DNA from: Kitasatospora sp. NBC_00315
GTDB taxonomy: Bacteria > Actinomycetota > Actinomycetes > Streptomycetales > Streptomycetaceae
Direction: 5' to 3'
NCBI RefSeq assembly: GCF_041435095.1
Contig: NZ_CP108025.1
Location: 4,030,001-4,094,000 of the forward strand
DNA length: 64,000 nucleotides
Position numbers and translations under genes: made by a program. The notes beneath the pieces were generated by a model. The model searched no databases and was not told where the DNA came from. It worked only from the letters and a program-made list of their open reading frames with translations. Shown piece after piece: positions 5,593 to 26,315 of this stretch (position 1 is the first letter of the stretch; every line of letters begins with the position of its first letter).

Positions 5593-5840
5593 TGTCTGCG
5601 GACGGTGTGTCCGCAACAAGACGTCAACACCGTAGCGACCCGATCGCCGCCGGTCCAGAGCGGGTCCACGCGACGGTCTGCTCCCGGCCAACCGCCACCC
5701 CGGGCGCCCCGGGGCGCCCGGACTGTGTTAACCGGAGGTTAGGTGTCGGCCCGGCCCCTGTACCGGGGCACCGCCCCGGCAGGACGCTGCGTGTGACGGC
5801 GCGACCACCCCGCGCCGCCCCCGCCACCAGGAGGTTCACC
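5593..5840. other. Divergent promoter region, thiC / MHS transporter
   Basis: This stretch, together with the riboswitch, separates thiC from the transporter gene. It must hold both promoters. I see no convincing operator palindrome. An AGGAGG ribosome site at 5829-5834 fixes the transporter start at 5841. Confidence 0.5.
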
Positions 5841-7256: not shown

Positions 7257-7919
7257 ATGCACGTACTCCTCGTCGAGGACGACGACCGGCTCGCGGCGGC
7301 CCTGGCCGCCGCGCTGGCCCGGCACGGGCACCAGGTGGTCCGGGCCGGGCGGGCCGACGACGCACTCCGGCTCAAGGACACCGCCGAGTTCGTCCTGCTC
7401 GACCTCGGACTGCCCGACATGGACGGCCTGGAGGCGCTGCGCCGGCTGCGCCGGGTCTCCACCGTGCCGGTGATCGTGCTCACCGCGCGGACCGAGGAGC
7501 GGGACATCGTCAGAGGGCTGCGCTCGGGAGCGGACGACTACCTGGTCAAGCCGTTCCGGACGGCGGAGCTGGTGGCCCGGATGGAGGCCGTGCAGCGGCG
7601 CGGCACCAGGCCCCGGGCCGCCGCCGGGCGACAGGTCTCGGTCGGCGACACCCTGATCGACCTGGAGACCCGCCGGCTGACCGTGGACGGCGCCGCGGTC
7701 GTGCTGACCCGGCGGGAGTTCGACGTGCTGGCACTCCTCGCCCGCGAGCCCGGGGTGGTCCGCAGCCGCGAGGAGATCCTCGACGAGATCTGGGGGGACG
7801 TCCTGCTCTCCGCGTCCCGCTCGCTGGACGTCCACATCGCGGGGATCCGCGCCAAGACCGGTCGACCGGGCCTGGTGGAGACCCTGCGCGCGACCGGCTA
7901 CCGGCTGGCCACCGCCTGA
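7257..7919 (+). CDS. OmpR-family response regulator
   Basis: A 220-residue regulator with an N-terminal receiver domain (about 1-115) and a C-terminal winged-helix DNA-binding domain (about 128-218). Acidic residues E7-D8-D9, the phosphoacceptor D49 in LLDLGLPDMDG, and the conserved lysine in DYLVKPF are present. The winged helix shows LTRREFDVLALL and the recognition region SRSLDVHIAGIRAKTG. Its stop codon overlaps the start of the kinase gene by one base (TGATG), so the two are translationally coupled. It probably responds to the adjacent kinase. Confidence 0.95.
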   Translation: MHVLLVEDDDRLAAALAAALARHGHQVVRAGRADDALRLKDTAEFVLLDLGLPDMDGLEALRRLRRVSTVPVIVLTARTEERDIVRGLRSGADDYLVKPFRTAELVARMEAVQRRGTRPRAAAGRQVSVGDTLIDLETRRLTVDGAAVVLTRREFDVLALLAREPGVVRSREEILDEIWGDVLLSASRSLDVHIAGIRAKTGRPGLVETLRATGYRLATA

Positions 7920-9250
7920 TGCAGCGACGTCTGCTGGCCGTCTACACACTGCTGATCGCCTGCCTGGTCGCGGCGCTGGCCGTACCGCTCGCACTGGCCT
8001 ACTCCTCCCACCGCACCGGGGAGCTGCTGCTCGCCCGCCGCGCCGACGCCACCCGCTTCGCGGAACTCGCCGACCGCGCGATCCGGGACGGGGACACCGC
8101 CGGACTCACCCTGGAGGTCTCCCGCTACAGCGCCCTGTACGCGACGGCGGTGGAGATCCGCGACCGGGACGGCGTGACCGTCGCGGGCGGCGGCGTCCGC
8201 GACGAGGCCGCCGTCTCGCGCGCGCTGTCCGGGCGCACCACCGACCGGCTGCCGCTGCTCACCCCCTTCGGCCCCGCCGGCGTGCTGATCGCGGAGCCGG
8301 CCGGGCGGGACGCCCAGGTCACCGGGACGGTCCTGATGCGGGCCCCGACCGGCGCCGCGCGCCGCGCGGTGGCGGCCGTCTGGGCGGCCCTCGCCGGGGG
8401 CTCGCTCGCGGCCCTGCTCTGCTCCCTGGTGGCCGCCCGCCGGCTGGCCGGCTGGATCCTGCGGCCGGTCGGCGAACTCGACCGCACCACCAGGGCGATC
8501 GCCGAGGGCCGGTTGGACGCCCGCGCCGGCACCTCCCGCGGCCCGGCCGAACTGCGGCGCCTGGAGCAGCGGTTCAACACGATGGCGGATGCCATCGCGG
8601 GGGCGCTGGAGCGTCAGCGGGCCTTCGTCGCGGACGCCTCGCACGAGCTGCGCACGCCGCTCACCGTGCTGTCACTGCGCCTGGAGAACCTGGAGCCGCA
8701 CCTCGTCCCCGCCGGCCGGGCCGAGTTCGACGAGACGCTCGCCGAACTCGACCGTCTGAACGCTCTGCTGGAGGACCTGCTGACGCTCGCCCGGGTGGAG
8801 GCCGACGCCGGTCTGCCCGAACTGGACGCGGTGGAGCACCTGCTGCCCCGACTGGCCGGCTGGCAGGAGGTGTACGCGGCCCGCGGCATCGGGCTCGGGA
8901 CGCAGATCGCCGCGACCGGCCCGGTACCGGCCGCGGCGGCCCGGATCGCCGACATCGCCCTGGACAACGCCGCGAAGTTCGTTCCCGCCGGCGGCCGGGT
9001 CCACGTCACCCTGGCCGACGGGGTGCTCCGGATCGCGGACGACGGGCCGGGACTGGACGAGGAGAGCCGGCAGGCGGCTCTGGGCCGCTTCTGGCGGGCG
9101 CCCGGGCACGGCAACGTCCCCGGCAGCGGGCTCGGACTGGCCATCGCCGCCGAACTGGCCCGGGCCTGCGGCGGCGCCCTGGCCCTGCTGCCCAACCACC
9201 CGCACGGGCTGGTGGTGGAACTGCGGCCTCAGCCGTGGACCGAGCGGTAG
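7919..9250 (+). CDS. Sensor histidine kinase, partner of the OmpR-type regulator
   Basis: A 443-residue membrane kinase. One helix at about residues 5-28 and a second at about 145-175 flank an extracytoplasmic sensor of ~115 residues. HAMP follows, then a HisKA domain with the H-box ASHELRTPLTVL (phosphoacceptor H242), and an HATPase domain with DNAAKF (N box), ADDGPGLD (G1) and GSGLGLAI (G2). The gene ends 22 bases inside the convergent TAXI lipoprotein gene. That adjacency suggests the kinase and the binding protein may work together, which is inference. Confidence 0.95.
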   Translation: MQRRLLAVYTLLIACLVAALAVPLALAYSSHRTGELLLARRADATRFAELADRAIRDGDTAGLTLEVSRYSALYATAVEIRDRDGVTVAGGGVRDEAAVSRALSGRTTDRLPLLTPFGPAGVLIAEPAGRDAQVTGTVLMRAPTGAARRAVAAVWAALAGGSLAALLCSLVAARRLAGWILRPVGELDRTTRAIAEGRLDARAGTSRGPAELRRLEQRFNTMADAIAGALERQRAFVADASHELRTPLTVLSLRLENLEPHLVPAGRAEFDETLAELDRLNALLEDLLTLARVEADAGLPELDAVEHLLPRLAGWQEVYAARGIGLGTQIAATGPVPAAAARIADIALDNAAKFVPAGGRVHVTLADGVLRIADDGPGLDEESRQAALGRFWRAPGHGNVPGSGLGLAIAAELARACGGALALLPNHPHGLVVELRPQPWTER

Positions 9251-10656: not shown

Positions 10657-12129
10657 ATGCTCATCGGCATCGCAGGGGCGTCCGTCGCCTCTCTCATCAT
10701 CCTGATCGTGCTCTTCAAGCTCATGTGGCGGGTCGCCGAGCCCAACGAGGCACTGATCATCTCCGGTTCGAGGCACCGCGCCGAGGGGGTCGGCGAAGGG
10801 CTCGGCTTCCGCATCGTCACCGGCCGCGGCACGCTGGTGACCCCGGGCGTGCAGGTGGTGCGCAAGCTGTCGCTGGACCTCAACGAGGCCGACCTCGACG
10901 TCGAGTGCGTGACCTCACAGGGGATCCCGGTGCACGTCAAGGGCGTTGTGATCTTCAAGGTCGGCGACGACGCGGTGTCGATCGCCAACGCCGCCCGCCG
11001 CTTCCTGGACCAGCAGGCGATGATGGGCCACCGGGTCCACAACGTCTTCGCCGGCCACCTGCGCTCGATCGTCGGCGGCCTGACCGTCGAGGACATGATC
11101 CGCGACCGCGAGCGGCTCACCGGCGAGACCCGTGCCGCCTCCGGCACCGAGATGGAGAAGCTGGGTCTGATCATCGACTCGCTGCAGATCCAGGAGATCC
11201 TCGACCCGACCGGCTACATCCAGAACCTGGCCGCTCCGCACGCGGCCCGGGTCATGCGCGACGCCCGGATCGCCCAGGCCGAGGCGGACCGCCAGGCCAC
11301 CGAGGCCGAGCAGGAGTCCTTCGCCCGCAAGGCCGAGGCGACCCGCAACAGCGGCATCCAGCAGGCCGGCTACCAGGCCGAGATGGAGACCGCGACCGCC
11401 CGCGCCATGCAGGCGGGGCCGCTGGCCCTGGCCGCCTCCCGCCAGGAGGTCGTGGTCCAGGAGACGAAGGTCGCCGAGCTGGAGGCGCACCGCAAGGAGC
11501 AGCAGCTCCAGGCGGACGTCCGCAAGCCGGCCGACGCCCGCGCGTACGAGACCAGGACCAAGGCCGACGCCGACCGCGACGCCCGGATCTCGGCCGCCCA
11601 GGCCCAGGCCAAGGAGACCGAGCTCAAGGCCGGTGCCGAGGCGAACCGGGTGAAGATCGCGGCGCTCGCCGAGGCGGAGGCCACCAAGGCCCGGGGCCTC
11701 GCCTCCGCGGAGGCCACCCGTGCCACCGGCCAGGCCGAGGCCGCCTCCGCCGAGGCCAAGGGCCTGGCGGCGGCCGAGGCGGCCCGTGCGCTCGGCCTCG
11801 CCGAGGCCGAGGCGATCAAGGCCCGTGCGGCCGCCCTGGCGGAGAACCAGGAGGCCGTGGTCGCACAGCAGTTGGCCGAGAACTGGCCGGAGATCGTCCG
11901 GGCCGGCGCGGAGGCGTTCGGCAACGTCGAGCACATGGTGCTGCTGAACGGCGCCGAGGGCATGGGCGAGATGTTCGCCAAGGCCCTCACCATGGGCGGC
12001 ACCGGCCTCGGCCTGGCCCGTCAGCTGCTGGGCACCATGAACGGAGCCACCCAGCCGGCCGCCGACCTGCCCGCGCAGGCCGCCGCCGAGCGCCCCCGGG
12101 CGCAGTCCATCCCGGTCCAGGAGGACTGA
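10657..12129 (+). CDS. Flotillin-like SPFH-domain membrane scaffold protein
   Basis: A 490-residue protein with one N-terminal membrane helix (about residues 3-20). An SPFH/band-7 domain follows (about 25-200; note GIPVHVKGVVIFKVGDD and VEDMIRDRERLTGETR). The long C-terminal coiled coil is rich in Ala/Glu/Lys repeats (AEA, EAxxA) and ends with the flotillin-type region LAENWPEIVRAGAEAFGNVEHMVLL. The ATG at 10657 follows a GAAGGGGG site; the frame remains open upstream but has no better start. Flotillins organise lipid domains and protein assemblies at the membrane. Confidence 0.92.
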   Translation: MLIGIAGASVASLIILIVLFKLMWRVAEPNEALIISGSRHRAEGVGEGLGFRIVTGRGTLVTPGVQVVRKLSLDLNEADLDVECVTSQGIPVHVKGVVIFKVGDDAVSIANAARRFLDQQAMMGHRVHNVFAGHLRSIVGGLTVEDMIRDRERLTGETRAASGTEMEKLGLIIDSLQIQEILDPTGYIQNLAAPHAARVMRDARIAQAEADRQATEAEQESFARKAEATRNSGIQQAGYQAEMETATARAMQAGPLALAASRQEVVVQETKVAELEAHRKEQQLQADVRKPADARAYETRTKADADRDARISAAQAQAKETELKAGAEANRVKIAALAEAEATKARGLASAEATRATGQAEAASAEAKGLAAAEAARALGLAEAEAIKARAAALAENQEAVVAQQLAENWPEIVRAGAEAFGNVEHMVLLNGAEGMGEMFAKALTMGGTGLGLARQLLGTMNGATQPAADLPAQAAAERPRAQSIPVQED

Positions 12130-12133
12130 CCGA

Positions 12134-12176
12134 CCGGCGGCGTGCCCCCGCCGAAACGGCGCGGGCACGCCGCCGG
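12134..12176 (+). terminator. Hairpin terminator after flotillin gene
   Basis: Fourteen-base arms CCGGCGGCGTGCCC and GGGCACGCCGCCGG flank a 15-base loop just after the stop codon. There is no T-run, as is usual in streptomycetes. Confidence 0.7.
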
Positions 12177-12342
12177 GCCCCTCCCCCCGGTCGGCCGCCG
12201 GTCCCGCCCTCGCAGTGGATCTTCACAGCGCTACCCTGTTCCTGCTCCACGCCCGCACCCCGGGGGCGCCTCGCCGGCGCCCCGGCGTCGCGCGTGTCGA
12301 GCGATCGCGCCATCATGCTCTTCGCCAGGGGGAAACAACACC

Positions 12343-15156
12343 GTGCGTCTTCGTCACGCCGTCGGCCTCGCGGCCGCCACCGTCTCGGCCGTCGTCGGCC
12401 TGCCCACCGTCGCGTCGGGCGCGGAACCCGCCTCGGTGCTGTACGTGGACAACGCCGCCGCGGCGCACTGCCTCGACGGCGGTGCGGGCACGCAGGCACA
12501 GCCGTACTGCACGATCCAGGCCGCCGCCGACGCCGCCCGGCCGGGCCAGACGGTACAGGTGGCCCCGGGCGCCGACCTGGCCGGCGGGGCGAAGCTGACC
12601 CACTCGGGCAGTCCGGGCCACCCCATCGTGATCAACGGATCACCGCTGGCCCCCCTGGACAGCTCGGGGATGAGCGGACAGCCCTCGCTGCACAACGAGT
12701 CGGGCCATGTCCTCGAACTCTCCGGCGTCACCGACGTCATCGTCCGGGGATTCGACATCTACGGCACGGCCGACCCGATCCTGGTCACCGGTTCGAGCAG
12801 GATCGAGCTCGACCAGAACATCATCGAGTACTCCGGGACCGCGCCGCTGCCCGGTGGATCGGCGGCCGTCCGGCTGTCGGGGGCGAACGACCACGTCACG
12901 GTCAGCAGGTCGATCGTCTACCGGAACGCCGGCATCGTCGTGGAGACCGGCTCGCAGCACACCACGATCGTCGGCAACAGCGTCAGCTCCCCGGGGTCGA
13001 CCGCCCTGACCGTGACGGACGCCCCCGGCACGGTCCTCACCAACAACACCCTCGTCGGTCTCGGCGCCGGTCTCGACCTGCGCGGCGCCTCGCCGGGCTC
13101 CGTGATCGAGAACAACATCGTCATCGCGTCGGCCACCCGGTCGTCGGTGGCCCCGGTGTCGGTCTCGGCGGACTCCGTACCCGGGACGACGATGGACTAC
13201 AACATCGTCCACCGTCCGCAGCCGGGCGACGCGTACGCCTGGGGCGGGACGGGCTACCCGGCCCCCGCAGCGTTCACCGCCGGGACGGGCCAGGGCTCGC
13301 ACGACTCGGACGCGGACGTCCCGTTCGACGGGGTCACCGGCCTCTACCCGATGCCCACGGACGCGGCCACCGCGGCCGTCGACTCCGGCGACCCGGCCGC
13401 GCCCGGTCTGCCGGACACCGACATGTTCGGCAAGGCCGTGGTGGACGATCCGCTGGTCGCCAACACCGGACCCGGGGGTGGCGTCAGGGACCGGGGCGCG
13501 TTCGAGGTGCAGGGCCTGCGGTACGCCTCGCTCAACCTGTACGGCGTCGACCACCCCGCGCCGGGCCCGCAGGGCCCCGGCCCGCTCGTGGTGGAGCTCA
13601 CCGCGTACTCCTCCACCCGCTGGCCGACGGTCCTCCACTACACCTTCGACTTCGGTGACGGTTCCGCGCCGCTGGTCACCACGGACAAGACGGTCCGCCA
13701 CACCTACTCCACGGTCGGCCGCCACCCGGCGAAGGTCACCGTCACCGACGGCATCGGCGGCAGCGTCGCCTCACCGGACGGCTCCTGGGTGACCGTCAAC
13801 CCGGACGGCCCGGTCGTGCCGACCCTGGACGCCACGCCGAACGGCACCGACCCGCTGGGCTTCCGGCTCGACACCGGGGGCAGCAGCCCGTGGGGCATCC
13901 GCGACTACGCGGTGGACTTCGGCGACGGCAGCTCCGACTCGCGCTCGTACAGCGGCTTCACCCACACCTACGGCCACCCCGGCACCTACACCGTCAGGCT
14001 GACCGTCACCGACTTCGCCGGGCGCAGCGCGAGCACCACCCGGCAGGTCACCGCCGCCTACGCGGCCGCCGGCTTCACCGCGATCACGCCCGCCCGGGTG
14101 CTCGACACCCGCGTGCCGGGCAGCCGCAACGAGCAGCACGGCGCGTGGAGCAGCATCGACGTGAACGTGCGCTCCGCACAGGCGAACGGCTCGGCCGCCG
14201 TGGTGCCGGCCGGTGCGACCGCCGTCGTCATCAACCTGACCGCCACCGGCGGCAGCGGCACCGGCTTCCTCGCCGCCGGTCCCAACCGGGGCGAGCGGCC
14301 GGCCACCTCGAACGTCAACTACGGGCCCGGCCAGGACGTCGCCAACGTGGTCACCGTCCCGATCGGGGCCGACGGCAACGTCACGATCACCAACAGCACC
14401 GGCGCGGTGGGCGCCGTCGCCGACGTCCTCGGCTACTACCGGGCGGACAGCCCGGCGAAGTACACCGCCGTCACGCCGGCCCGGCTGCTCGACACCCGGG
14501 CCGCCGGTGACTCCCCGCTCGGCCAGGACAGGGCCCGCTCGCTGAAGGTCACCGGCGCCGGGGTCCCCGCCGATGCGGGCGCGGTCGTCCTCAACGTCAC
14601 CTCCACCGACGCCACCGCCGACAGCCACCTGATCGTCTACCCCACCGGGGCGAACCGGCCGGCGGCCTCGAACCTCAACTTCGGGCCCGGCCGGACCGTG
14701 CCCAACCAGGTGATCGTGCCGGTCGGCGCCGACGGCAGCATCGACCTGTACAACCACCTCGGCAGCACCGACGTGATCGTCGACGTGTTCGGCTACTACG
14801 GTCCGGACGGCGGCGGCCTGTTCACCCCGGTCACCCCGGCCCGCCTGCTGGACACCCGGCTGAGCGGCGGCGCGCTCGGGCAGGGGGCGTCCCGGAGCGT
14901 CGGCGGGGTCCCGGCGGGCGCCACCGCCGCGGTCGTCAACATCACCGCGACCGGGACGACCACGGACACCCACCTGATCGTGCACGCCACCGGCACGGCC
15001 CTGCCGGGCACCAGCAACCTCAACCCGGTGCCCGGGCGCGACGTGCCCAACCAGGTGACCACGCCGGTCGGCGCCGACGGCAGGTTCGACGTCTTCAACC
15101 ACATGGGCAGCACCCAGGTGATCGCCGACCTGTTCGGCTACTTCACCAACGGGTGA
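12343..15156 (+). CDS. Secreted beta-helix protein with PKD and LLDTR repeats
   Basis: A 937-residue exported protein. I chose the GTG at 12343, preceded by AGGGGG, because it puts a normal Sec signal peptide first (about residues 1-28, ending VASGAEP). Residues ~35-400 resemble a right-handed parallel beta-helix (ATIVGNSVSS, LTNNTLVGLG, IENNIVIAS) of the kind that binds or cleaves polysaccharides. Two PKD domains follow (about 427-470 and 507-571, each with DFGDGS). Three copies of a ~115-residue module complete it (580-703, 706-823, 826-937). Each begins TPARxLDTR and ends in a variant of VIADxFGYY. The same module occurs in the S53 protease at 23217. I see no clear catalytic residues. Confidence 0.85.
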   Translation: MRLRHAVGLAAATVSAVVGLPTVASGAEPASVLYVDNAAAAHCLDGGAGTQAQPYCTIQAAADAARPGQTVQVAPGADLAGGAKLTHSGSPGHPIVINGSPLAPLDSSGMSGQPSLHNESGHVLELSGVTDVIVRGFDIYGTADPILVTGSSRIELDQNIIEYSGTAPLPGGSAAVRLSGANDHVTVSRSIVYRNAGIVVETGSQHTTIVGNSVSSPGSTALTVTDAPGTVLTNNTLVGLGAGLDLRGASPGSVIENNIVIASATRSSVAPVSVSADSVPGTTMDYNIVHRPQPGDAYAWGGTGYPAPAAFTAGTGQGSHDSDADVPFDGVTGLYPMPTDAATAAVDSGDPAAPGLPDTDMFGKAVVDDPLVANTGPGGGVRDRGAFEVQGLRYASLNLYGVDHPAPGPQGPGPLVVELTAYSSTRWPTVLHYTFDFGDGSAPLVTTDKTVRHTYSTVGRHPAKVTVTDGIGGSVASPDGSWVTVNPDGPVVPTLDATPNGTDPLGFRLDTGGSSPWGIRDYAVDFGDGSSDSRSYSGFTHTYGHPGTYTVRLTVTDFAGRSASTTRQVTAAYAAAGFTAITPARVLDTRVPGSRNEQHGAWSSIDVNVRSAQANGSAAVVPAGATAVVINLTATGGSGTGFLAAGPNRGERPATSNVNYGPGQDVANVVTVPIGADGNVTITNSTGAVGAVADVLGYYRADSPAKYTAVTPARLLDTRAAGDSPLGQDRARSLKVTGAGVPADAGAVVLNVTSTDATADSHLIVYPTGANRPAASNLNFGPGRTVPNQVIVPVGADGSIDLYNHLGSTDVIVDVFGYYGPDGGGLFTPVTPARLLDTRLSGGALGQGASRSVGGVPAGATAAVVNITATGTTTDTHLIVHATGTALPGTSNLNPVPGRDVPNQVTTPVGADGRFDVFNHMGSTQVIADLFGYFTNG

Positions 15157-15174
15157 CCCACCCCCGCCCTGCCG

Positions 15175-15208
15175 CGTGCCCGTCCACCGATCCCGGTGGG
15201 CGGGCACG
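15175..15208 (+). terminator. Hairpin terminator after beta-helix gene
   Basis: Arms CGTGCCCGTCCACCG and CGGTGGGCGGGCACG pair with a single T-G wobble across a 4-base loop. It isolates the upstream gene from the OleA-like cluster. Confidence 0.75.
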
Positions 15209-15282
15209 TTGGGTATCCGGCGGCCCGGAACTGAGTACCCGTACTCAGGCCGTCGGAGCGCGCGCGACGGGAGCATGGCGTC

Positions 15283-16287
15283 ATGGACCTCCCGATAGCG
15301 CGGGTCGGCATCACGGCCGTCGGCTCGTTTCTGCCCGCCCACCGGCTGACCTCGCAACAGCTCCAGGACGAGGTGGCCGGGGAACTACGGCTTCCCGAGC
15401 GGATGTTCGAGAAGGCGACCGGCATCGTCACCCGGCACTTCGCCGCCGAAGGCGAGTACGCCTCCACGCTCGCCCTGGGCGCCGCCCGCCGCGCCCTCGA
15501 CGCCCGCGGCATCGACGCCACCGACATCGACCTGCTGCTGTACGCCTCGGCCACCCGTGATCTGTGCGAACCCGCCACCGCCCACCTGGTGCAGGCCGAA
15601 CTCGGCTCCCGCGCCCACGCCCTGGACGTCGCCAACGCCTGCAACAGCTTCCTCAACGGGATCGACCTGGCCCGCGCGATGATCCTGGCCGGCCGGGCCC
15701 GGCGTGCGCTGGTGGTGACGGGCGAGACCCCCAGCCGCGCGATGCGGCGCGACCCGGGCGGCCTCGCCGACTTCCGCGAGGGCTTCGCGGGCTACACCTT
15801 CGGGGACGCCGGCGCCGCCGTCGTGGTCGAGCCGGTGGCGCGTGGCGGCATCCTCGACGTCGAGACCGAGACCGCCTCCGAGCACTGGGCGGTCGGCGGC
15901 ATCCCGGGCGGCGGCTCGCGGCACCCGCGCGGCGACGAGTACAGCTACTTCCGCGGCGGCGGGACGCGGTTGCGCACCGTCTTCGAGAAGATCGGCGGCG
16001 ACATCCTGAACCGGGTGGCGGCCCGCACCGGCCTCGGCTGGGACGCCTACGCCCGCGTCCTGGTCCACCAGGTGACCGTCCCCTACCTGGAACGGTTCGT
16101 CGAACTGACCGGGGTGCCCGCCGAGAAGCTGGTGCTCACGGTGCCGGACGTCGGCAACGTCGCCAGCGCCACGCTCGGCCTCCAACTCGACCGCGTCCGG
16201 CACGAGCTGGCTCCGGGGGACCGGGTGCTGCTGATCGGCCTGGGCGGCGGCGTCAGCCTGATGACCATGGTCTGGGAGGCGTCGTGA
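15283..16287 (+). CDS. OleA-like thiolase (KASIII family acyl condensing enzyme)
   Basis: A 334-residue thiolase-superfamily protein. The catalytic set is complete: C120 in DVANACNSF, H262 in VLVHQVT and N292 in DVGNVAS. It also has E96 in CEPATA, which aligns with the glutamate (E117 in the Xanthomonas enzyme) that OleA supplies from its partner subunit and that ordinary FabH lacks. The blocks EPATA and DVANAC follow OleA closely. OleA joins two acyl chains head to head to give a 2-alkyl-3-keto acid. A GGGAG site precedes the ATG. The next gene overlaps it by four bases, and it is first in a five-gene run with OleC- and OleD-like genes. A FabH-like priming role is the alternative. Confidence 0.85.
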   Translation: MDLPIARVGITAVGSFLPAHRLTSQQLQDEVAGELRLPERMFEKATGIVTRHFAAEGEYASTLALGAARRALDARGIDATDIDLLLYASATRDLCEPATAHLVQAELGSRAHALDVANACNSFLNGIDLARAMILAGRARRALVVTGETPSRAMRRDPGGLADFREGFAGYTFGDAGAAVVVEPVARGGILDVETETASEHWAVGGIPGGGSRHPRGDEYSYFRGGGTRLRTVFEKIGGDILNRVAARTGLGWDAYARVLVHQVTVPYLERFVELTGVPAEKLVLTVPDVGNVASATLGLQLDRVRHELAPGDRVLLIGLGGGVSLMTMVWEAS

Positions 16288-17045
16288 CCGCCGGCCCGGG
16301 GAGCCCCGACGGGCTCTGGGTGATCGTCCCCGCGTACCAGGAGGAGGCGAGGATCGGCGACACCCTGACCGCCCTCGCCCGCCAGCACGACCGGGACTTC
16401 ACCCTGCTGGTCGTCGACAACGGCTCCACCGACCGCACCGCCGCGCTGGCCCGCGCGTTCGCCGCCGAGGCGCCGTTCCCCGTGCGGGTCCTGGTCGAGT
16501 CGGAGAAGGGCGTCGGCTGCGCCGTCGACACCGGGTTCCGGTACGCCCTGGCACACGGCGCCACCCTGCTCGCCCGGACCGACGCCGACTGCGTCCCCCG
16601 GCCGACCTGGACGGCCGCCGCCCGGATCGCGCTCACCGCCCGCCCCGGACTGGTCTGCGGCCGGATCCTGGCCCGGCGCGACGAGCACGGCCCGCTCGGC
16701 CGGGCCGGCTTCCGCGCGCTGGTCCTCACCGCCGCCGTGTTCGGACGCCTGCGCCCCGCCCACCACCGCCGGCACGGCTACCTGGCCCCCTACCGGATGC
16801 ACGCCGGCAACAACATGGCGATCACCGCCGAACTGTACGAGGCCGTCGGCGGCATGCCCCGGCGCCCGTCCCCCACCGACCGCGCCTTCCTCAACCGGGT
16901 CCGCCGGCACACCACCGCGATCAGCCGCTGCCGGGCCATGGCGGTGCACAACTCCACCCGCCGGCTGACCGCCTTCGGCGTGCTCGGGACGGCCCGCTGG
17001 TACCTGGACCGGGGCAGCGGCCGGCACGGCGCCAATCCGCGCTGA
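16284..17045 (+). CDS. Family 2 glycosyltransferase in the OleA-like cluster
   Basis: A 253-residue cytosolic GT-A fold protein with no membrane helix. Its GTG start overlaps the stop of the OleA-like gene (GTGA), which argues for coupled expression. It shows the GT2 pattern: VIVPAYQEEARIGDTL at the N-terminus, VVDNGSTDRT (nucleotide binding) and RTDADCVPRP (the DxD-type metal site). After the catalytic half the C-terminal ~80 residues are Arg-rich. The sugar and acceptor are unknown; its place in the operon suggests it decorates the product made by its neighbours. Confidence 0.85.
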   Translation: MTAGPGSPDGLWVIVPAYQEEARIGDTLTALARQHDRDFTLLVVDNGSTDRTAALARAFAAEAPFPVRVLVESEKGVGCAVDTGFRYALAHGATLLARTDADCVPRPTWTAAARIALTARPGLVCGRILARRDEHGPLGRAGFRALVLTAAVFGRLRPAHHRRHGYLAPYRMHAGNNMAITAELYEAVGGMPRRPSPTDRAFLNRVRRHTTAISRCRAMAVHNSTRRLTAFGVLGTARWYLDRGSGRHGANPR

Positions 17046-17051
17046 CCCGCC

Positions 17052-17118
17052 GCACCCGCGCCCACCGCGCGCACGACGCCCACCGCGCCCACCGCGCCCA
17101 CCGCGCGCACGACGCGCC
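17052..17118. repeat. CCCACCGCG / CGCACGACG short tandem repeats
   Basis: The 110-base gap inside the cluster is filled by imperfect direct repeats of the 9-mer CCCACCGCG, interspersed with CGCACGACG; an 18-base unit appears twice around them. No gene is coded here. A GGAAGG ribosome site for the next gene lies at about 17141. Confidence 0.7.
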
Positions 17119-17155
17119 GCCGACCCCCGCCCGAGCACACCGGAAGGACCGATCC

Positions 17156-18625
17156 GTGCTGGACAACCTCGCTCGGGCGCTGCGCACCGCGCCCGAGCGC
17201 CCCGCCGTACTGCGCAACACCCGTGGCGGCGCCGCCCGGGTGCAGATCCGCCGCGGTGAGCTCGCGGACCTCGCCGACGCCTACGCCGCCGCCCTGCACC
17301 GGCGCGGGCTGGGCCCGGGGGACACCCTGGGCGTGGCCGTCCGCCCGGGGCCGCGCGCGCTGGCCGTGCTGCTCGCCGCCCACCACCTGGGGCTGCGGAT
17401 CGCCGTGCTCGACCCGAGCGCCGGTCCGGACGTGCTGCGCGCCCGGCTGTCGCTGGCCCGGCCCGCGCTGATCCTCGCGGACGCCGCCGCCCAGGCGGTG
17501 ACCGGCTGGGCCCGCCCGCTCGCCCGCCGGGCCCACCTCGCGCTCCCTCCGCTCGCCGAACTCGGGCCGGTCGCCACCCTCGGGCGGCGCTGGCCGGGCA
17601 GCGCACCCGGACTACGGGCGGCCCCCGCCCCGCCGCCGAGGGCCGCCGACCCGGGGCCCGACGCGGACGCCGTCATCGTCTTCACCTCCGGCACCACCGC
17701 CGACCCGCGCGCCGTCGTGCACAGCCGGGCCGGCCTCGCGGCGGGCCTGCGCACCGTCGCCGCACTGGTCCGGCCGCAGGACGGATCGACCGTCCTCGGG
17801 GGCACCTTCTTCGTCCTGGTGCCCGCCCTGGCTGCCGGCGCAGGCGTCGCCCTGCCGGCTCGCTCGCCCGCCGCGCTGGCCCGCCAGCTCCACCACCTGG
17901 CGCCCGCCGAGACATACCTCACCCCACCGCTGCTGCGGGCCGCCCTGGCGGCCGGCGCCGGCTTCACCGGCCGGGTCTGGACCGGCTCCGCCCCGGCCGG
18001 CGCGGAGCTGCTGCGCCGGGTGAAGCGGGCCGGGGCCACCGAGGCCTGGAGTGTGTACGCGCTGACCGAGCTCTTCCCCGCCGCGGCCGTCGAGGAGGCC
18101 GAGAAGGCCGCCTTCACCGGCGCCGGGGATCTGGTCGGCCACCCCCTCCCGGGGGTGCGGACCCGGCTCGCGGAGGACGGTGAGCTGCTGCTCACCGGCC
18201 CCGGCGTCCGCCACCGCTACCTCGGCGAGCAGCCCGATCCCTGGGTCCGCACCGGGGACCGGGCCACCCTGACCGCCGACGGACGGATCGCGCTGGCCGG
18301 CCGCTGCAAGGACATGGTGCTGCGGCGGGCGGAGAACATCTACCCCGGGCTGTACGAACCCGCGCTGCACCTGCCCGGGGTCGAACTGGCCGTCCTGGTG
18401 GGCGTCCCGGACGCGGAGGGCGACGAGCGGCTGGTCGCCCTCGTCCAGCCGCGCCCCGGGGCCGACCACCGGCGGCTGCGCGCCGCCCTGGAGGAGCCGC
18501 TCGCCCGGATGGGCAGCGCCCGGCCGGACGCCGTCCTGTTCGCCGACGTGCCGCTCGCCGGCCGCTCCCGCAAACCCGACCGGGCCGCCGCGTCCCGGCT
18601 CTGCGCGGGGGAGCCGGCCCGATGA
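17156..18625 (+). CDS. OleC-like AMP-dependent ligase (possible beta-lactone synthetase)
   Basis: A 489-residue ANL-superfamily enzyme with a GTG start. The phosphate-binding loop is FTSGTTADPRAV (from residue 176), the A5 motif is VYALTELFP, the hinge region is WVRTGD and GRCKDMVLRRAENIYP, and the catalytic lysine is K473 in RSRKPDR. OleC enzymes use this fold to activate a 2-alkyl-3-hydroxy acid as the acyl-AMP and close it to a beta-lactone. Ordinary fatty acyl-CoA or AMP ligases look similar, so the OleC assignment rests mainly on the neighbours. The cytochrome P450 gene overlaps its stop by four bases (ATGA). Confidence 0.75.
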   Translation: MLDNLARALRTAPERPAVLRNTRGGAARVQIRRGELADLADAYAAALHRRGLGPGDTLGVAVRPGPRALAVLLAAHHLGLRIAVLDPSAGPDVLRARLSLARPALILADAAAQAVTGWARPLARRAHLALPPLAELGPVATLGRRWPGSAPGLRAAPAPPPRAADPGPDADAVIVFTSGTTADPRAVVHSRAGLAAGLRTVAALVRPQDGSTVLGGTFFVLVPALAAGAGVALPARSPAALARQLHHLAPAETYLTPPLLRAALAAGAGFTGRVWTGSAPAGAELLRRVKRAGATEAWSVYALTELFPAAAVEEAEKAAFTGAGDLVGHPLPGVRTRLAEDGELLLTGPGVRHRYLGEQPDPWVRTGDRATLTADGRIALAGRCKDMVLRRAENIYPGLYEPALHLPGVELAVLVGVPDAEGDERLVALVQPRPGADHRRLRAALEEPLARMGSARPDAVLFADVPLAGRSRKPDRAAASRLCAGEPAR

Positions 18626-19737
18626 GCGGCGCCGGCACGCGCCGGGCCCGGCGCCGCGACCGCCGGGTCTACCTGGCCGGCCATCCCGTCCTGTTCGTCC
18701 TGCTCGCCGCGACCCGTCGCCGCCCGGTGGTCCGGATCGGCCGGACGGTGCTGGTGCACGGCGGCGCGGCCTACCACGAGGTGCTCACCCGGCTCCCGCT
18801 GGACCGCACCGCGGCCGGCACCACCGGCGGCGCGGCCGCCGAACTCACCGGCGGCGGGCTGCTGTTCGACCAGGACGGCGACGACCACCGGGCCGCCCGC
18901 CGCACGCTGGCCGCCGACCTCGGCGCCCGGACCGCGCTGCGGCTGCGCCCACGGTGGCAGGCCGTGCTGGACGAGCGCCTGGCCGTCCTGGGCCGGGGCC
19001 TGGCCCTCGATCTCGTACCGCTGGCAGCCGAGTTGGCGGGCCTGACCGCCGCCGCGCTGACCACCCCGGCCCCGACCGCCGCCGGGCCCGCCGGTGCGCC
19101 CGATCCGCTGCTGCTCGCCCACGCCGCCACCGAGGCGGCCGCCGCCACCGCCCGCGACCACCTGCCGGGGCGCCGCCGCCCCGGCGGTGCCGAGGCCGCG
19201 GCGACGGCCGCCGCCCGGCTCAACTCGCTGCTGCCGGACGGCCTGGACGCGATGCTGGCCGTGGCCGCCGTCAACACCACGGTGGCCGCCCTCCCCCGGG
19301 CCGCCGCCTGGTGCGCCGACGCGGGCCTCTGGGCCGGGCTCACGCCCGACAACGCCCCCGGGGTCGCCTCGGAACTGCTCCGGCTGACGGCCCCCTCGCC
19401 CGTCCTGCCGCGCGTCGCGGCGGCCGGCGCCACCGTCGCCGGCTGCCCGATCGCCCGCGGCGACCGCCTCGTCCTGGTCGCCCGGCATGCCGCCGAGTCG
19501 CACCGCGACACCCCCGTCGACCCGGCCCGGGCGACCCAGGCCGTGTTCGGCGCGGGCCCGCACGCCTGCCCGGGCGCCGCCGCTGCCCGCGCGCTGCTCG
19601 CCGAGTTCCTGCTGGCCCTGGCCCCGTACCGGCCGACGGTCGTGAGGGCCCGCGCCGACCACCGCTCCGCCCTGCCGGGCTGGGCCGAGCTGCAGGTCAG
19701 GGCCGGGCGACCGGCCGGCCGGGGAGCGAGCCGATGA
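18622..19737 (+). CDS. Cytochrome P450, short form with altered I helix
   Basis: A 371-residue haem monooxygenase. The haem ligand is C316 in VFGAGPHACPG, and the ExxR motif is E251-L-L-R254. The I helix reads AAVNTT (N218, T219, T220), so the usual acidic residue before the conserved threonine is Asn. The protein is about 30-40 residues shorter than typical bacterial P450s, mostly before the I helix. Its start overlaps the AMP ligase gene and its stop overlaps the reductase gene. It likely oxidises an intermediate or the product of the cluster. No ferredoxin gene is nearby. Confidence 0.85.
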   Translation: MSGAGTRRARRRDRRVYLAGHPVLFVLLAATRRRPVVRIGRTVLVHGGAAYHEVLTRLPLDRTAAGTTGGAAAELTGGGLLFDQDGDDHRAARRTLAADLGARTALRLRPRWQAVLDERLAVLGRGLALDLVPLAAELAGLTAAALTTPAPTAAGPAGAPDPLLLAHAATEAAAATARDHLPGRRRPGGAEAAATAAARLNSLLPDGLDAMLAVAAVNTTVAALPRAAAWCADAGLWAGLTPDNAPGVASELLRLTAPSPVLPRVAAAGATVAGCPIARGDRLVLVARHAAESHRDTPVDPARATQAVFGAGPHACPGAAAARALLAEFLLALAPYRPTVVRARADHRSALPGWAELQVRAGRPAGRGASR

Positions 19738-20609
19738 GGATGGCCGTCACCGGCGCGAGCGGGTTCTGCGGCTCGCGGGTGGCCCTCGCGGCCGCCGCCC
19801 TGGGCGCCGAAGTGCTCTGCCTGGGGCGCGCTCCCGGCCCGCTCGGCCGGCACATCCGCTGGGACGCCACCGCCGGACGCCCCGACCTGGCCGGCGCCGA
19901 CCTGGTCGTGCACTGCGCGGCCGCGGTCGGGGACCCGGCCCCCGGCTCCCCCGCCGAGGCCCTGCACCACGCCGTCAACGTCGACGGGACCGCCCGGCTG
20001 CTCGAAGCGGCGGCCGGGCGCCCGGTGGTCTGGGTGAGCAGCGCCAGCGTGTACGACCCCCGGCCCGACCGCTCGCTGGTCCGGGAGGACCACCCCACCG
20101 CCGGCGGCCACCTCAACGCGTACGGGCGCAGCAAGGCGGCCGGTGAGCGGCTCGCGCTGGCCGCCGGCGCGGTGGTGCTGCGCCCGCGGGCGGTCTACGG
20201 ACCGGACGATCCGCACCTGGTGCCGCGACTGCTGGAGCGGGTCCGGCACGGGGTGCTGCTGCTGCCGGGCCCGGACGTGACGCTCAGCCTGACCGCGGTG
20301 CAGAACCTCGCGGACGCCTGTCTGGCCGCCGCCGGGTGGCCGCCCGGCGCCTACAACATCGCCGACGCCCGGCCGTACCGGCGGGACGAAACCGTACGCC
20401 GCGTCCTGGCGGCCCACGGCCGGAGCGTGCGGATCGGCCACCTGCCCGTCCGGCTGGCCGAGTTCGCCGCCCGCACCGGCCGGTTTCCCGGTCTCACCCG
20501 GTACGCGGTCGACCAGCTGGCCCGGGACGTCGTGCTGGACACCACCCGGGCCCGGGCCACCGGCTGGCGGCCCCGGTGGGATCTGGACTCCGCCCTGCCG
20601 TGGCCGTGA
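19734..20609 (+). CDS. OleD-like NAD(P)-dependent reductase (extended SDR)
   Basis: A 291-residue extended short-chain dehydrogenase. The N-terminal Rossmann motif is VTGASGFCG. There is a WVSSASVYD serine region, and the active-site pair is Y130-xxx-K134 in AYGRSK. The 3-beta-HSD/epimerase subgroup includes OleD, which reduces the 2-alkyl-3-keto acid made by OleA to the hydroxy acid used by OleC. The Ole role is inferred from context. The ATG overlaps the P450 stop codon (ATGA), and the operon ends in a strong hairpin 4 bases after the stop. Confidence 0.8.
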   Translation: MRMAVTGASGFCGSRVALAAAALGAEVLCLGRAPGPLGRHIRWDATAGRPDLAGADLVVHCAAAVGDPAPGSPAEALHHAVNVDGTARLLEAAAGRPVVWVSSASVYDPRPDRSLVREDHPTAGGHLNAYGRSKAAGERLALAAGAVVLRPRAVYGPDDPHLVPRLLERVRHGVLLLPGPDVTLSLTAVQNLADACLAAAGWPPGAYNIADARPYRRDETVRRVLAAHGRSVRIGHLPVRLAEFAARTGRFPGLTRYAVDQLARDVVLDTTRARATGWRPRWDLDSALPWP

Positions 20610-20612
20610 ACG

Positions 20613-20655
20613 CGGCGACGCCCGTACCCCTGGGACAGGGGTACGGGCGTCGCCG
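20613..20655. terminator. Bidirectional hairpin terminator
   Basis: An essentially perfect 18-19-base inverted repeat (CGGCGACGCCCGTACCCCT and its complement) lies between the convergent reductase and DUF5326 genes and should serve both. Confidence 0.85.
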
Positions 20656-20666
20656 GCCGAGGACCG

Positions 20667-20867
20667 TCAGTTCTTGGCGGCCTTCTTCACCAGGATCACC
20701 ACGGCGGCGGCGATACCGACCACCACCAGGACCTTGAACGCGAACGCGAGCAGGGCGCCGACCACGCCGAACACGAATCCGATGATCTGCCACGCCAGGA
20801 TCAGCACGATGATCGGGACGACGATGTTGCGCACCCACGAGGGCAGCGACTTCCAGAGCTCAGCCAT
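20667..20867 (-). CDS. DUF5326 family small membrane protein
   Basis: A 66-residue protein, MAELWKSLPSWVRNIVVP at the N-terminus, with two hydrophobic helices (about residues 15-36 and 38-58) and a Lys-rich C-terminus. The start at 20867 is supported by AGAAGGA. The length and the WKSLPSWV / FKVLVVV pattern match the small streptomycete family DUF5326, whose function is unknown. It stands alone. Confidence 0.75.
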   Translation of the reverse strand: MAELWKSLPSWVRNIVVPIIVLILAWQIIGFVFGVVGALLAFAFKVLVVVGIAAAVVILVKKAAKN

Positions 20868-21091
20868 GTCCGTTCCTTCTCTCCCCTCGGGCCGGCTGCC
20901 TGTCCGGTGCCGCATCCCGTCTGCTTCGGTACTTCGATCGTACGGGTGCCGAGCAGCCGGAACGAGGGCCCGCAGCCCCGAGAGAACCCGGAGATCACCC
21001 CGAGTCCCGACCCCGGGGCCAACCCTGGGAGTCGCTCCCCGGGAGCCCTCGGACCGGCCCCGGGGAGAGAGCGCGAGAGCCCCCGGCGGGA

Positions 21092-23216: not shown

Positions 23217-26200
23217 ATGTGGATGGCCCATCCCACGGATCCGCCCAGCGGATTCCGAATAGCCGGTGCCCGCGGGCCCCGAGCCCGCCGGCAGCCGTCG
23301 CCGAGGCGTCTGCTCACCGGATCGGCGACGGCCGCGCTGGTGGCCGCACTGCTCGTCCCCGGTACGGCGTTCGCCGACAGCGCGTCACCGGCCCCGGCGC
23401 CGCAGCGGGTCGGCAAGGCCCCGACCGCACCGGCCGGCGCCGTCGTCGCGGCCGCGCCGACGGACGACACCGTGCTCCAGCTCGGCGTCACGCTGTCGCC
23501 GCGTGACCCGGGCGCCCTGCAGAGCTTCGTCGGCGCGGTGTCCACCCCCGGCTCGGCGCAGTATCACCAGTACCTGAAGACCGGGGAGTTCGGGCAGCGC
23601 TTCGGCGCCGACCCGGCCACCCTGGAGAAGGCGGCCAAGGCGCTCACCGACCTCGGCCTGCACCCCGGCGCGGTCGGCGCCGACGGCCTCACCATCCCGG
23701 TCACCACGACCGTGGCCGAGGCCGAGCGCGCGTTCAGCACCGACATCACCGGCTACCGGCTGGCCGACGGCCGGAGCGCGTACGCCAACGCCACGGCGCC
23801 CGAGCTGCCCGGCAGCATCGCGGGCTCGGTCACCGGCGTGGTGGGCCTGAACACCCTGGCCAAGGTCCGCAGCAACCACGCCCTGCCGGACGGCGCCGCC
23901 GCCGCCCCCAAGGCCGTCACGCCGCAGGCCACCGGCGGCGCCGGGGTGGCACCCCGGGCCGGCACCACCGCGGCCCCGCAGCTGTGCCAGTGGGTCCAGG
24001 ACTGGCAGCAGCAGCAGTTCGGCCGGGCGGACTACCGGGACTACTACAGCAGTTCCGCGCTGGCCTCCGTCTACGGCCTGCCGTTCGTCGACGGCGGCTC
24101 GAACACCACCGTGGCGATCTTCGAGCTGGAGGACTACTCCGACGCCGCCGTCGCGGCCTACCAGCAGTGCTACGGCACCAGCACCTCGGTCTCGCGGGTC
24201 AGGGTCGACGGCGGCCCGACCCACGCACCGGACCTCTCCGACTACGGCATCGAGTCCGCACTCGACATCGAGACCGTCCTCGGCCTCGTCCCGAACGCGA
24301 ACATCCTGGTCTACCAGGGCCCCGACGCGCAGAACGCCACCAAGACCAACATCCTCGACGTCTACCGCGCGATCGTGAACGACAACCGCGCGCAGGTGGT
24401 GTCCACCAGCTGGGGACTCTGCGAGGCGGACTCCGACCCCGCGATGACGGCGACCGAGAACCTGATCTTCCAGCAGGCGGCCGCACAGGGCCAGACCATG
24501 GTGGCGGCCTCGGGTGACAGCGGCTCGACCGGCTGCTACCACCAGAACGGACCGCTCGACACCCGGCTGAGCACCGACGACCCGGCGAGCCAGCCGTACG
24601 TCACCGCCGTCGGTGGCACCTCGATGACGGGTCACTCCTACGACCTGGTCCAGTCGGCGTGGAACCGCGGCGGCGCGACCGGCGGCGGCGCCTCCGCCAC
24701 CTGGGCCCTCGACAAGGCCACCGGCTACCAGGCCGGTACCACCGGCCAGGGGTACAGCGACAGCCGCTGCTCCGCGGCCACCGGCACCGCCTGCCGGCAG
24801 GTCCCGGACGTGTCCGCGCTCGCGGACGGGTCCAACGGCTACCTGATCGCGGTCGGCGTCGACGCCCAGGGTCTCCAGTACTGGGGCCGGATCGCCGGCA
24901 CCAGCGGGGCGGCCCCGGTGTGGGCCGCCATCGCCGCCCACGCCGACTCCTCCCTGCAGTGCGCGGCGGACGGCCCGGTGGGCTTCCTCAACCCCGCGCT
25001 CTACAAGGCCAAGGGCAGCAACGCGTTCACCGACGTCACCACCGGGAACAACGTGCTGGCCGCCTCCGGCTACATCGGCGGCCTCTACCAGGCCACCGCC
25101 GGCTACGACCTGGCCACCGGCCTGGGCACCCCGAACGCGGGCACCCTGACCGACGTCCTGTGCGCCGCACCGCCGCAGAGCCCGGCCGGCACCTTCAAGG
25201 CCGTCGCGCCCAGCCGCCTGCTGGACACCCGGGACGGCGGCGGGCAGACCGCGGGCAGCCCCGTCGGCGCCTACCAGACCCTCTCCCTGAAGATCGCCGG
25301 CCGGCCCGGCATCCCGACGGACGGCCTGACCGGCGTCGTGCTGAACGTGACCGTCACCCAGCCCCGGGCGGACGGCCACCTGACCGTCTACCCCTCCGGC
25401 AAGGCGCAGCCGGGCACGTCCAACATCAACTGGGTGAAGGGGACGACCATCCCCAACCTGGTGACCGTGCCGGTCGGCGCCGACGGCACCGTGAAGCTGT
25501 ACAACGGCAGCTGGGACGCCGCCCACCTGATCGCCGACGTGTCCGGGTTCTACTCCAGCACGGCCACGGACGGGTCGACCTTCACGGCCACCGGTCCGAC
25601 CCGCATCCTGGACACCCGGCAGAGCGGCGGCCAGACCGGCGGCCGGCCCGCCGGCGCCTACCAGGAGATCCCGCTGGCGATCGCCGGCCGCCCGGGCCTG
25701 CCCGCGCAGGGCATCACCGCGGCCGTGCTCAACGTGACCGTGACCGGCACCCAGTCGGACGGCCACCTGACCGCCTATCCCTCCGGCGGGGCCCGCACCA
25801 GCACGTCCAACCTCAACTGGACGACCGGCCAGACCATCGCCAACCAGGTGATCGTCCCGGTCGGGCCGGACGGCAAGGTCATCCTGCTCAACGACACCTG
25901 GACGAGCTCGCACGTGATCGCCGACCTCTTCGGCTACTTCACGGCGGACACGACGGGCGCGAAGTTCCACACCACGGTGCCGCACCGGCTGATGGACACC
26001 CGTACCGGCACCGGCACCTACCAGGGCCCGTTCGAGGACCACACCATCCGCACGCTCCCGCTGGACTTCGGCGGGCTGCTGTCGCAGTCCAAGGCCGTGG
26101 TGCTCAACATCACCGTGACCGACACGTACGACGACGGCCACCTGGAGGTGTACCCGTACAACGGGACCACCACGGCCTCGGCGCTCAACTGGAGCAAGGG

Positions 26201-26315
26201 CCAGACCATCGCCAACCACGTCACGATTCCGGTCGGCGGCTCCGGCGCGATCGAGATCTACAACGCGAGCCTGCGGGCCCACGTCATCGTCGACGTGCTC
26301 GGCTACTACAGCTGA
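23217..26315 (+). CDS. Secreted sedolisin (S53) protease with three LLDTR modules
   Basis: A 1032-residue exported acid-type serine protease. A long signal region (about 1-53, with RRQPSPRRLLTG before the hydrophobic run) is followed by a pro-domain (about 75-220) that should be cut off. The catalytic domain (about 255-640) has all key residues: E346 and D350 in IESALDIETVLG, the oxyanion D434 in SGDSGSTGC, and S563 in GTSGAAP. After it come three modules of ~115 residues. They begin APSRLLDTR, GPTRILDTR and VPHRLMDTR, and their ends resemble VIADVxGYY. They are the same module as in the protein at 12343 and may bind the wall or a polymer. An ATG six bases later is an alternative start. Confidence 0.93.
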   Translation: MWMAHPTDPPSGFRIAGARGPRARRQPSPRRLLTGSATAALVAALLVPGTAFADSASPAPAPQRVGKAPTAPAGAVVAAAPTDDTVLQLGVTLSPRDPGALQSFVGAVSTPGSAQYHQYLKTGEFGQRFGADPATLEKAAKALTDLGLHPGAVGADGLTIPVTTTVAEAERAFSTDITGYRLADGRSAYANATAPELPGSIAGSVTGVVGLNTLAKVRSNHALPDGAAAAPKAVTPQATGGAGVAPRAGTTAAPQLCQWVQDWQQQQFGRADYRDYYSSSALASVYGLPFVDGGSNTTVAIFELEDYSDAAVAAYQQCYGTSTSVSRVRVDGGPTHAPDLSDYGIESALDIETVLGLVPNANILVYQGPDAQNATKTNILDVYRAIVNDNRAQVVSTSWGLCEADSDPAMTATENLIFQQAAAQGQTMVAASGDSGSTGCYHQNGPLDTRLSTDDPASQPYVTAVGGTSMTGHSYDLVQSAWNRGGATGGGASATWALDKATGYQAGTTGQGYSDSRCSAATGTACRQVPDVSALADGSNGYLIAVGVDAQGLQYWGRIAGTSGAAPVWAAIAAHADSSLQCAADGPVGFLNPALYKAKGSNAFTDVTTGNNVLAASGYIGGLYQATAGYDLATGLGTPNAGTLTDVLCAAPPQSPAGTFKAVAPSRLLDTRDGGGQTAGSPVGAYQTLSLKIAGRPGIPTDGLTGVVLNVTVTQPRADGHLTVYPSGKAQPGTSNINWVKGTTIPNLVTVPVGADGTVKLYNGSWDAAHLIADVSGFYSSTATDGSTFTATGPTRILDTRQSGGQTGGRPAGAYQEIPLAIAGRPGLPAQGITAAVLNVTVTGTQSDGHLTAYPSGGARTSTSNLNWTTGQTIANQVIVPVGPDGKVILLNDTWTSSHVIADLFGYFTADTTGAKFHTTVPHRLMDTRTGTGTYQGPFEDHTIRTLPLDFGGLLSQSKAVVLNITVTDTYDDGHLEVYPYNGTTTASALNWSKGQTIANHVTIPVGGSGAIEIYNASLRAHVIVDVLGYYS

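Follow-up and report, generated by a model that had tools for sequence, protein, structure and literature searches.

Smith, Robinson, Molomjamts and Wackett (mBio, 2020; PMC7064751) described a set of five genes in Actinoplanes atraurantiacus, encoding a ketosynthase, a glycosyltransferase, an AMP-forming ligase, a cytochrome P450 and a short-chain dehydrogenase/reductase (SDR). They predicted a hydroxylated, glycosylated beta-lactone as its product, and found no candidate for oleB in the genome of this organism. We analysed a window of 64,000 nucleotides (the whole stretch of DNA under study) from Kitasatospora sp. NBC_00315, which lies at 4.03–4.09 Mb on the 8.24-Mb contig NZ_CP108025.1 and carries the same five genes at 15283–20609. 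Their order is the one listed for A. atraurantiacus and the predicted product is the same (PMC7064751). The two clusters differ in host and in sequence (the ketosynthase is 68, the glycosyltransferase 70, the ligase 63, the P450 50 and the SDR 60 % identical to the A. atraurantiacus proteins, locus L088 of our set), and the product is known for neither. The initial annotation of the window held that no characterised cluster of this composition was known. This is out of date, as both the composition and the product guess stand in the 2020 paper, although that paper characterised no product either. We found no other description of the gene set, and no product of this cluster type, in the open-access literature, preprints excluded. 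Gene set and product idea were thus already published in 2020; what we add is the breadth of the family, a failed test of the ligase as an OleC and the exchange seen in Micromonospora.

Two other groups of clusters bear comparison. The oleABCD clusters of Streptomycetaceae (L191, L192, L194) and of other actinobacteria (among L168–L180) share the OleA-type ketosynthase and the OleD-type SDR with the window operon, with ketosynthase identities of 37 % (L191) and 35 % (L194). The operon differs from them in that it lacks OleB, has a ligase outside the OleC clade and adds a family 2 glycosyltransferase (GT2) and a P450. The OleB-less oleACD clusters for lipstatin and nocardiolactone (lst and nlt, as we take the gene names to be) likewise combine an OleA-type ketosynthase, a ligase and an OleD-type SDR and have no OleB. 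L182, which is nlt-like by gene content only, differs from the operon by two ketosynthase genes, a true OleC (598 bits, see below) and no match to the GT2 or the P450. We propose that the window operon encodes a small OleA-initiated lipid pathway in which two acyl chains are joined, oxidised and glycosylated, most likely to a beta-lactone; we put the probability of this reading at about one half.

The five genes lie on the forward strand in open frames at the coordinates first annotated, with 4-bp overlaps at three of the four junctions (ketosynthase/GT2, ligase/P450, P450/SDR) and a 110-bp gap between the GT2 and ligase genes. We collected relatives by scanning one genome per species, which yielded 220 relatives of the ketosynthase; all locus counts refer to the best 80 of these 220. 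All five genes are present in 66 of the 80 loci, spanning several families, and the order ketosynthase-GT2-ligase-P450-SDR is kept in 58, so that the grouping is far beyond chance. Forty-one of the 58 show the plain order, 16 carry an additional GT2 gene inserted between those for the ligase and the P450, and one (L094) has two adjoining GT2 matches that may be a single gene. The order ketosynthase-GT2-P450-ligase-SDR is found in 8 loci, from Actinomadura and kin, and fits L111 too if its P450 at 10805–11893 (Pfam) is counted. Three Micromonospora loci (L075, L086, L100) have ketosynthase, P450, ligase and SDR with a second AMP-binding gene; seven loci are interrupted by a contig end, and three are partial despite enough flanking DNA (L104, which lacks the GT2, L106 and L110). 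The 4-bp overlaps recur in 51/75 (ketosynthase/GT2), 20/73 (ligase/P450) and 22/71 (P450/SDR) loci, counts that rest on automatic start choice and whose denominators include the reordered Actinomadura loci. Crude clustering of open reading frames across the 80 loci found no sixth gene common to several families except the second GT2 in some, a weak negative because in high-GC DNA the frame picker often sets genes in the wrong place.

We find the operon conserved in Kitasatospora, Streptomyces, Micromonosporaceae and Nocardioides. Actinomadura has the reordered form, in which the P450 is 27–30 % and the ligase and SDR about 40–45 % identical to those of the window. The closest named relative by ketosynthase is Kitasatospora indigofera (92 % identity). 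Searches with the ketosynthase only found near-full-length matches at ≥78 % identity in 37 of 70 genomes of the genus, and ketosynthases at ≥69 % identity in 39 of 293 genomes drawn from the order, the strain's own genome being included in both counts. A Kitasatospora-like operon (ketosynthase 84 % identical) was also found in a record titled Saccharothrix sp. ST-888 (L045), whose name may be wrong.

The first gene (15283–16287) encodes a 334-residue ketosynthase of the KAS III family (Pfam ACP_syn_III/III_C). The triad C120/H262/N292 and the glutamate E96, on which its initial assignment as OleA-like was based, are all in place. The pair E96-P97 corresponds to the Glu117-Pro rule for OleA (PMC7064751). 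It is present in 61 of 61 aligned OleA-type rows, and the glutamate in none of four other ketosynthase-like proteins of the same genome (four of six such matches, without L006 and L007). We built a midpoint-rooted tree of 65 rows, most of them picked from 120 ketosynthase hits. In it, a clade of 49 rows (support 100/97) united the OleA of Streptomycetaceae oleABCD clusters with the window and Actinomadura types; the OleA of other actinobacterial oleABCD clusters neighboured this clade and the four own-genome enzymes fell opposite. Two rows, L182 and L004, have long branches according to a program warning. Tree position and the Glu-Pro pair thus identify the ketosynthase, at the level of sequence, as OleA-type, as first annotated. 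Assignment as FabH is ruled out by the tree, in which the KAS III-like comparison is with the four own-genome proteins and no named FabH, and by the glutamate motif.

The fifth gene (19734–20609) encodes a 291-residue extended SDR (Pfam Epimerase), which the initial annotation had likened to OleD. OleD models are its top NCBIfam matches. All of the 22 members scanned (selected from 60 listed plus the window's) match them too, with E-values lower than for any other model tallied; the residues S102/Y130/K134 are invariant in these 22. By sequence the SDR is thus OleD-like. The second gene (16284–17045, 253 residues, Pfam Glycos_transf_2) encodes a GT2 whose invariant columns and predicted model (pLDDT, the model's own confidence score, 88.6) indicate a GT-A fold with an intact DxD motif at D100-A-D102 and no visible membrane part. 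No donor sugar is named by NCBIfam, where TIGR04283 scores 55 bits (cut-off 182), or by fold matches. The fourth gene (18622–19737) encodes a short, divergent protein of 371 residues that falls marginally under the Pfam P450 cut-off (20.2 versus 22.8 bits). Its ExxR and FGxGxHxC residues (FGAGPHAC in the window) are nearly invariant across members and the model has a P450 fold; by these motifs and the predicted fold it is a cytochrome P450.

Two variants touch the sugar step. In Planosporangium flavigriseum (L084, 12192–13775) the second GT2 carries a fused BrkB-type membrane domain, which suggests a membrane-tethered sugar step, and L092 has a frame of similar length at the same position. Locus L104, from a metagenome-assembled genome, carries ketosynthase, ligase, P450 and SDR genes with no GT2 match within 19 kb, so the sugar step may be dispensable.

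OleB is absent from the operon. Using the Streptomycetaceae OleB of L191 as query, we searched 12 genomes at E ≤ 1e-15, a setting that recovered the distant OleB control G301 at 3.1e-29 and 36 % identity. The strain's own genome gave no match, though a more distant OleB would be missed, and neither did four other genomes carrying the ketosynthase or the operon (G581, G545, G174, G134) in the same search. One weak match each was found in G265, G017, G062 and G020 (E about 1.0e-23 to 2.2e-17, 32–37 %), the best of them coming near the distant control. These look like background, because the L191 genome, in which a true OleB is present, contains a second match of the same weak kind (3.0e-18, 31 %); OleB is unlikely in these four genomes. 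The first description of the operon as a cluster without OleB holds at this sensitivity.

Gene content, conservation, the OleA and OleD relationships, the motifs and the absence of OleB at the sensitivity used form the basis of the proposed pathway. The ketosynthase would join two acyl chains by an OleA-type, non-decarboxylative Claisen condensation to a 2-alkyl-3-oxo acid, which the SDR would reduce to the 2-alkyl-3-hydroxy acid. The P450 would hydroxylate one chain and the GT2 would add a sugar to a hydroxyl. The ligase would adenylate the carboxylate, upon which the 3-hydroxyl would most likely close the beta-lactone, and the ring would persist because there is no OleB. We infer every chemical step, the step order, the chains and the sugar; ring closure is the weakest step.

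Several observations weigh against this reading, and most of them concern the ligase. In cells, the OleA of A. atraurantiacus was able to hydrolyse p-nitrophenyl hexanoate, which speaks for the reading; the purified enzyme, which speaks against it, precipitated and yielded no Claisen product from any of the acyl-CoAs tried (PMC7064751). The window ketosynthase stays below the curated cut-off of PRK09258 (161.7 of 285 bits) and is scored about equally by a general KAS III model (164 bits). We take PRK09258 to cover OleA; the ketosynthase of the nlt-like L182 likewise misses its cut-off (135.7 of 285 bits). The window SDR reaches only 77 and 66 of the 580 bits set for the OleD models; the OleD of L075 also falls short (215 bits), and the cut-off of NF042422 was reached in none of 246 genomes of the phylum.

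The third gene (17156–18625) starts with GTG and encodes a ligase of 489 residues. The initial annotation had called it an AMP ligase, which its Pfam AMP-binding match bears out, and had read it as OleC-like; that it is an OleC failed in our tests. Its score was 90 bits for PRK09274, where the cut-off is 478, and 55 bits for the OleC model NF045786, where it is 900; a general acyl-CoA ligase model scored higher (100 bits). The ligase of the Actinomadura form (L105) also missed the PRK09274 cut-off (121 bits). Across 24 members, selected from 64 listed plus the window's, the best E-value was 1.6e-49 for the general acyl-CoA ligase model and 1.2e-41 for PRK09274. The OleC of L075 and L182 passed PRK09274 with 558 and 598 bits (E 1.7e-167 and 1.3e-179), yet themselves missed NF045786 (476 and 498 of 900 bits). 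When the OleC model was compared with its own genome, the window ligase came 32nd among 79 matched places. BLAST in five genomes returned other acyl-CoA ligases as its top matches, its match to OleC being the weaker one in G073 (40 versus 59 bits). Its A10 block reads GRSRKPDR and lacks the RHNxKI block found near the C terminus in seven of nine OleC rows inspected (L180 has RHRSKI, and L169 did not align there); that this block defines OleC is our reading of the inspected rows, motif blocks having been viewed for selected rows only. Its A8 block, NIYPGLYEP, resembles acyl-CoA ligases.

OleC rows formed a clade that excluded the window ligase in two trees (100/99, in the first tree, from which L170 was left out for length and L146 for want of a hit, and 100/100). 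Forcing the ligase inside OleC, with the Streptomyces, NRPS-type (non-ribosomal peptide synthetase) and nlt-like OleC rows, was rejected by the approximately unbiased (AU) test (p 5.9e-4), as was grouping it with the acyl-CoA ligase subgroup L235, L239, L260 and L244 (p 8.6e-7); the groupings tested were chosen after the tree was seen. By family cut-off and clade, then, the ligase is not an OleC, and the beta-lactone is therefore a guess; it may still work like an OleC. The OleC name in the 2020 paper, which appears from its text and the legend of Figure 6 to rest on annotated domains (PMC7064751), is not confirmed by our tests. The trees nevertheless separate the window ligase and OleC jointly from the other ANL enzymes, with 98 SH-aLRT support against 46 others (46 of the 60 loci L204–L263, 94 rows) and 100/98 against 27 others (60 of those 94 rows, with near-copies and long and divergent rows dropped). 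Common descent of the two is thus our best guess, with the window type as a lineage of its own near OleC. The initial annotation had also considered that the ligase might belong with ordinary acyl-CoA synthetases: the best trees place it beside OleC, whereas grouping it with the acyl-CoA ligases as a whole was not rejected (p 0.126). Of the interpretation proposed at first, the OleA assignment, the likeness to OleD and the lack of OleB have stood; the OleC assignment has not.

The same data would suit a pathway that ends at the open 2-alkyl-3-hydroxy acid, a corynomycolate-like skeleton, whose AMP or CoA ester the ligase would make for transfer, the GT2 and P450 then yielding a hydroxylated glycolipid with no beta-lactone. 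The position of the ligase outside OleC, its A8 block and the unrejected acyl-CoA ligase grouping all favour such an end, as does the fact that 75 of the 80 loci, those of the Actinomadura form among them, have the GT2 directly after the ketosynthase. It has to contend with the best trees, in which the ligase adjoins OleC, with the three Micromonospora loci in which OleC-clade ligases take its place, and with an operon that holds no acyltransferase. We consider an open-acid product possible, if doubtful.

The ketosynthase might also be OleA-like in mechanism and make another head-to-head product, a pyrone or ketone of the kind that we take photopyrone-type synthases to form, with the ligase only supplying activated acids. 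In favour of this, the glutamate general base also occurs outside OleA, in pyrone-forming relatives. We examined the gene context of four of eight loci whose ketosynthases are 35–42 % identical to the window's (L189, L190, L195, L203). The OleA-type ketosynthases of L189 and L190, both from Streptomycetaceae, adjoin KAS II-type ketosynthases with no OleC match nearby, which speaks for such a product; those of L195 and L203 adjoin transporter, DUF1963, HtaA and transposase genes. Against it, an SDR would be superfluous on a pyrone route, and an OleD-like SDR is present in 71 of 80 loci, seven of the other nine being interrupted by a contig end. We therefore regard a pyrone or ketone as improbable. 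L189 also shows a weak second ketosynthase ahead of the OleA-type one (5819–6832 and 7906–8949), with an MMPL transporter and the KAS II-type ketosynthase beside them. That the five genes are chance neighbours can be dismissed: the 110-bp gap before the ligase is all that we found for it, and conservation of the full set in 66 of the 80 loci, across several families, with the ketosynthase/GT2 overlap in 51 of 75, rules it out.

The Micromonospora loci bear on both the ligase and the tailoring steps of the proposed beta-lactone pathway. In L075, L086 and L100 the ketosynthase is 62–63 % and the P450 53–54 % identical to those of the window, and the ketosynthases nest within the window-type clade beside the window-type ketosynthase of Micromonospora (support 90/93, a node not starred). 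Their ligases fall inside the OleC clade, that of L075 passing the PRK09274 cut-off of 478 with 558 bits, and no GT2 match was found in any of the three. L075 further encodes an OleD (215 bits) and an NRPS of 1006 residues with A and PCP domains; these domains were annotated for L075 only, L086 and L100 being alike in layout by BLAST. An OleC-clade ligase and an OleD beside the same ketosynthase and P450 would suit equivalent roles for the ligase and SDR of the window. The comparison suggests that the tailoring step is swappable between the two kinds of locus, with a sugar in the window type and, as we read it, an amino acid in the Micromonospora loci.

A 20-bp perfect hairpin at 20613–20655 on the forward strand, 3' of the SDR gene (fold −47 kcal/mol, z −6.0), is a possible transcription end; it has no U tract and was not among the predictions of a terminator scan. 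A scan of 15000–20900 found no sigma-70-type promoter. On either side of the operon, at 12142–15156 and 23217–26315, we noted by eye two apparently secreted proteins, one bearing PKD-like repeats and the other similar to an S53 (sedolisin) protease, which share a C-terminal repeat around RLLDTR...VIADVFGYY in about three copies each. ARAGORN reported a tRNA-Ala at 1948–2040 (93 nt) and a tRNA-Phe at 8438–8533 (96 nt); the latter is probably false, because it lies inside an open histidine-kinase-like frame (7919–9250).

With the ketosynthase in more than half of the genus genomes (37 of 70) and the whole operon recurring in Kitasatospora loci, many of these bacteria probably make use of the lipid in their normal life. 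A bolder reading, which we hold to be rather unlikely as a whole, is that the ligase represents an ANL family of its own, found widely among actinobacteria, that acts on 2-alkyl-3-hydroxy acids and is not OleC. The operon would then make hydroxylated glycolipids with a corynomycolate-like core in bacteria for which mycolic acids are not known, and in the Micromonospora loci nature would have replaced the sugar on this scaffold by an amino acid. Those loci offer a ready comparison for what the glycosyltransferase and the P450 act on. Beta-lactones serve as warheads in drugs. Should the ligase make one, a large set of uncharacterised beta-lactone clusters would open up; if it makes none, the published guess for this cluster type would need changing.

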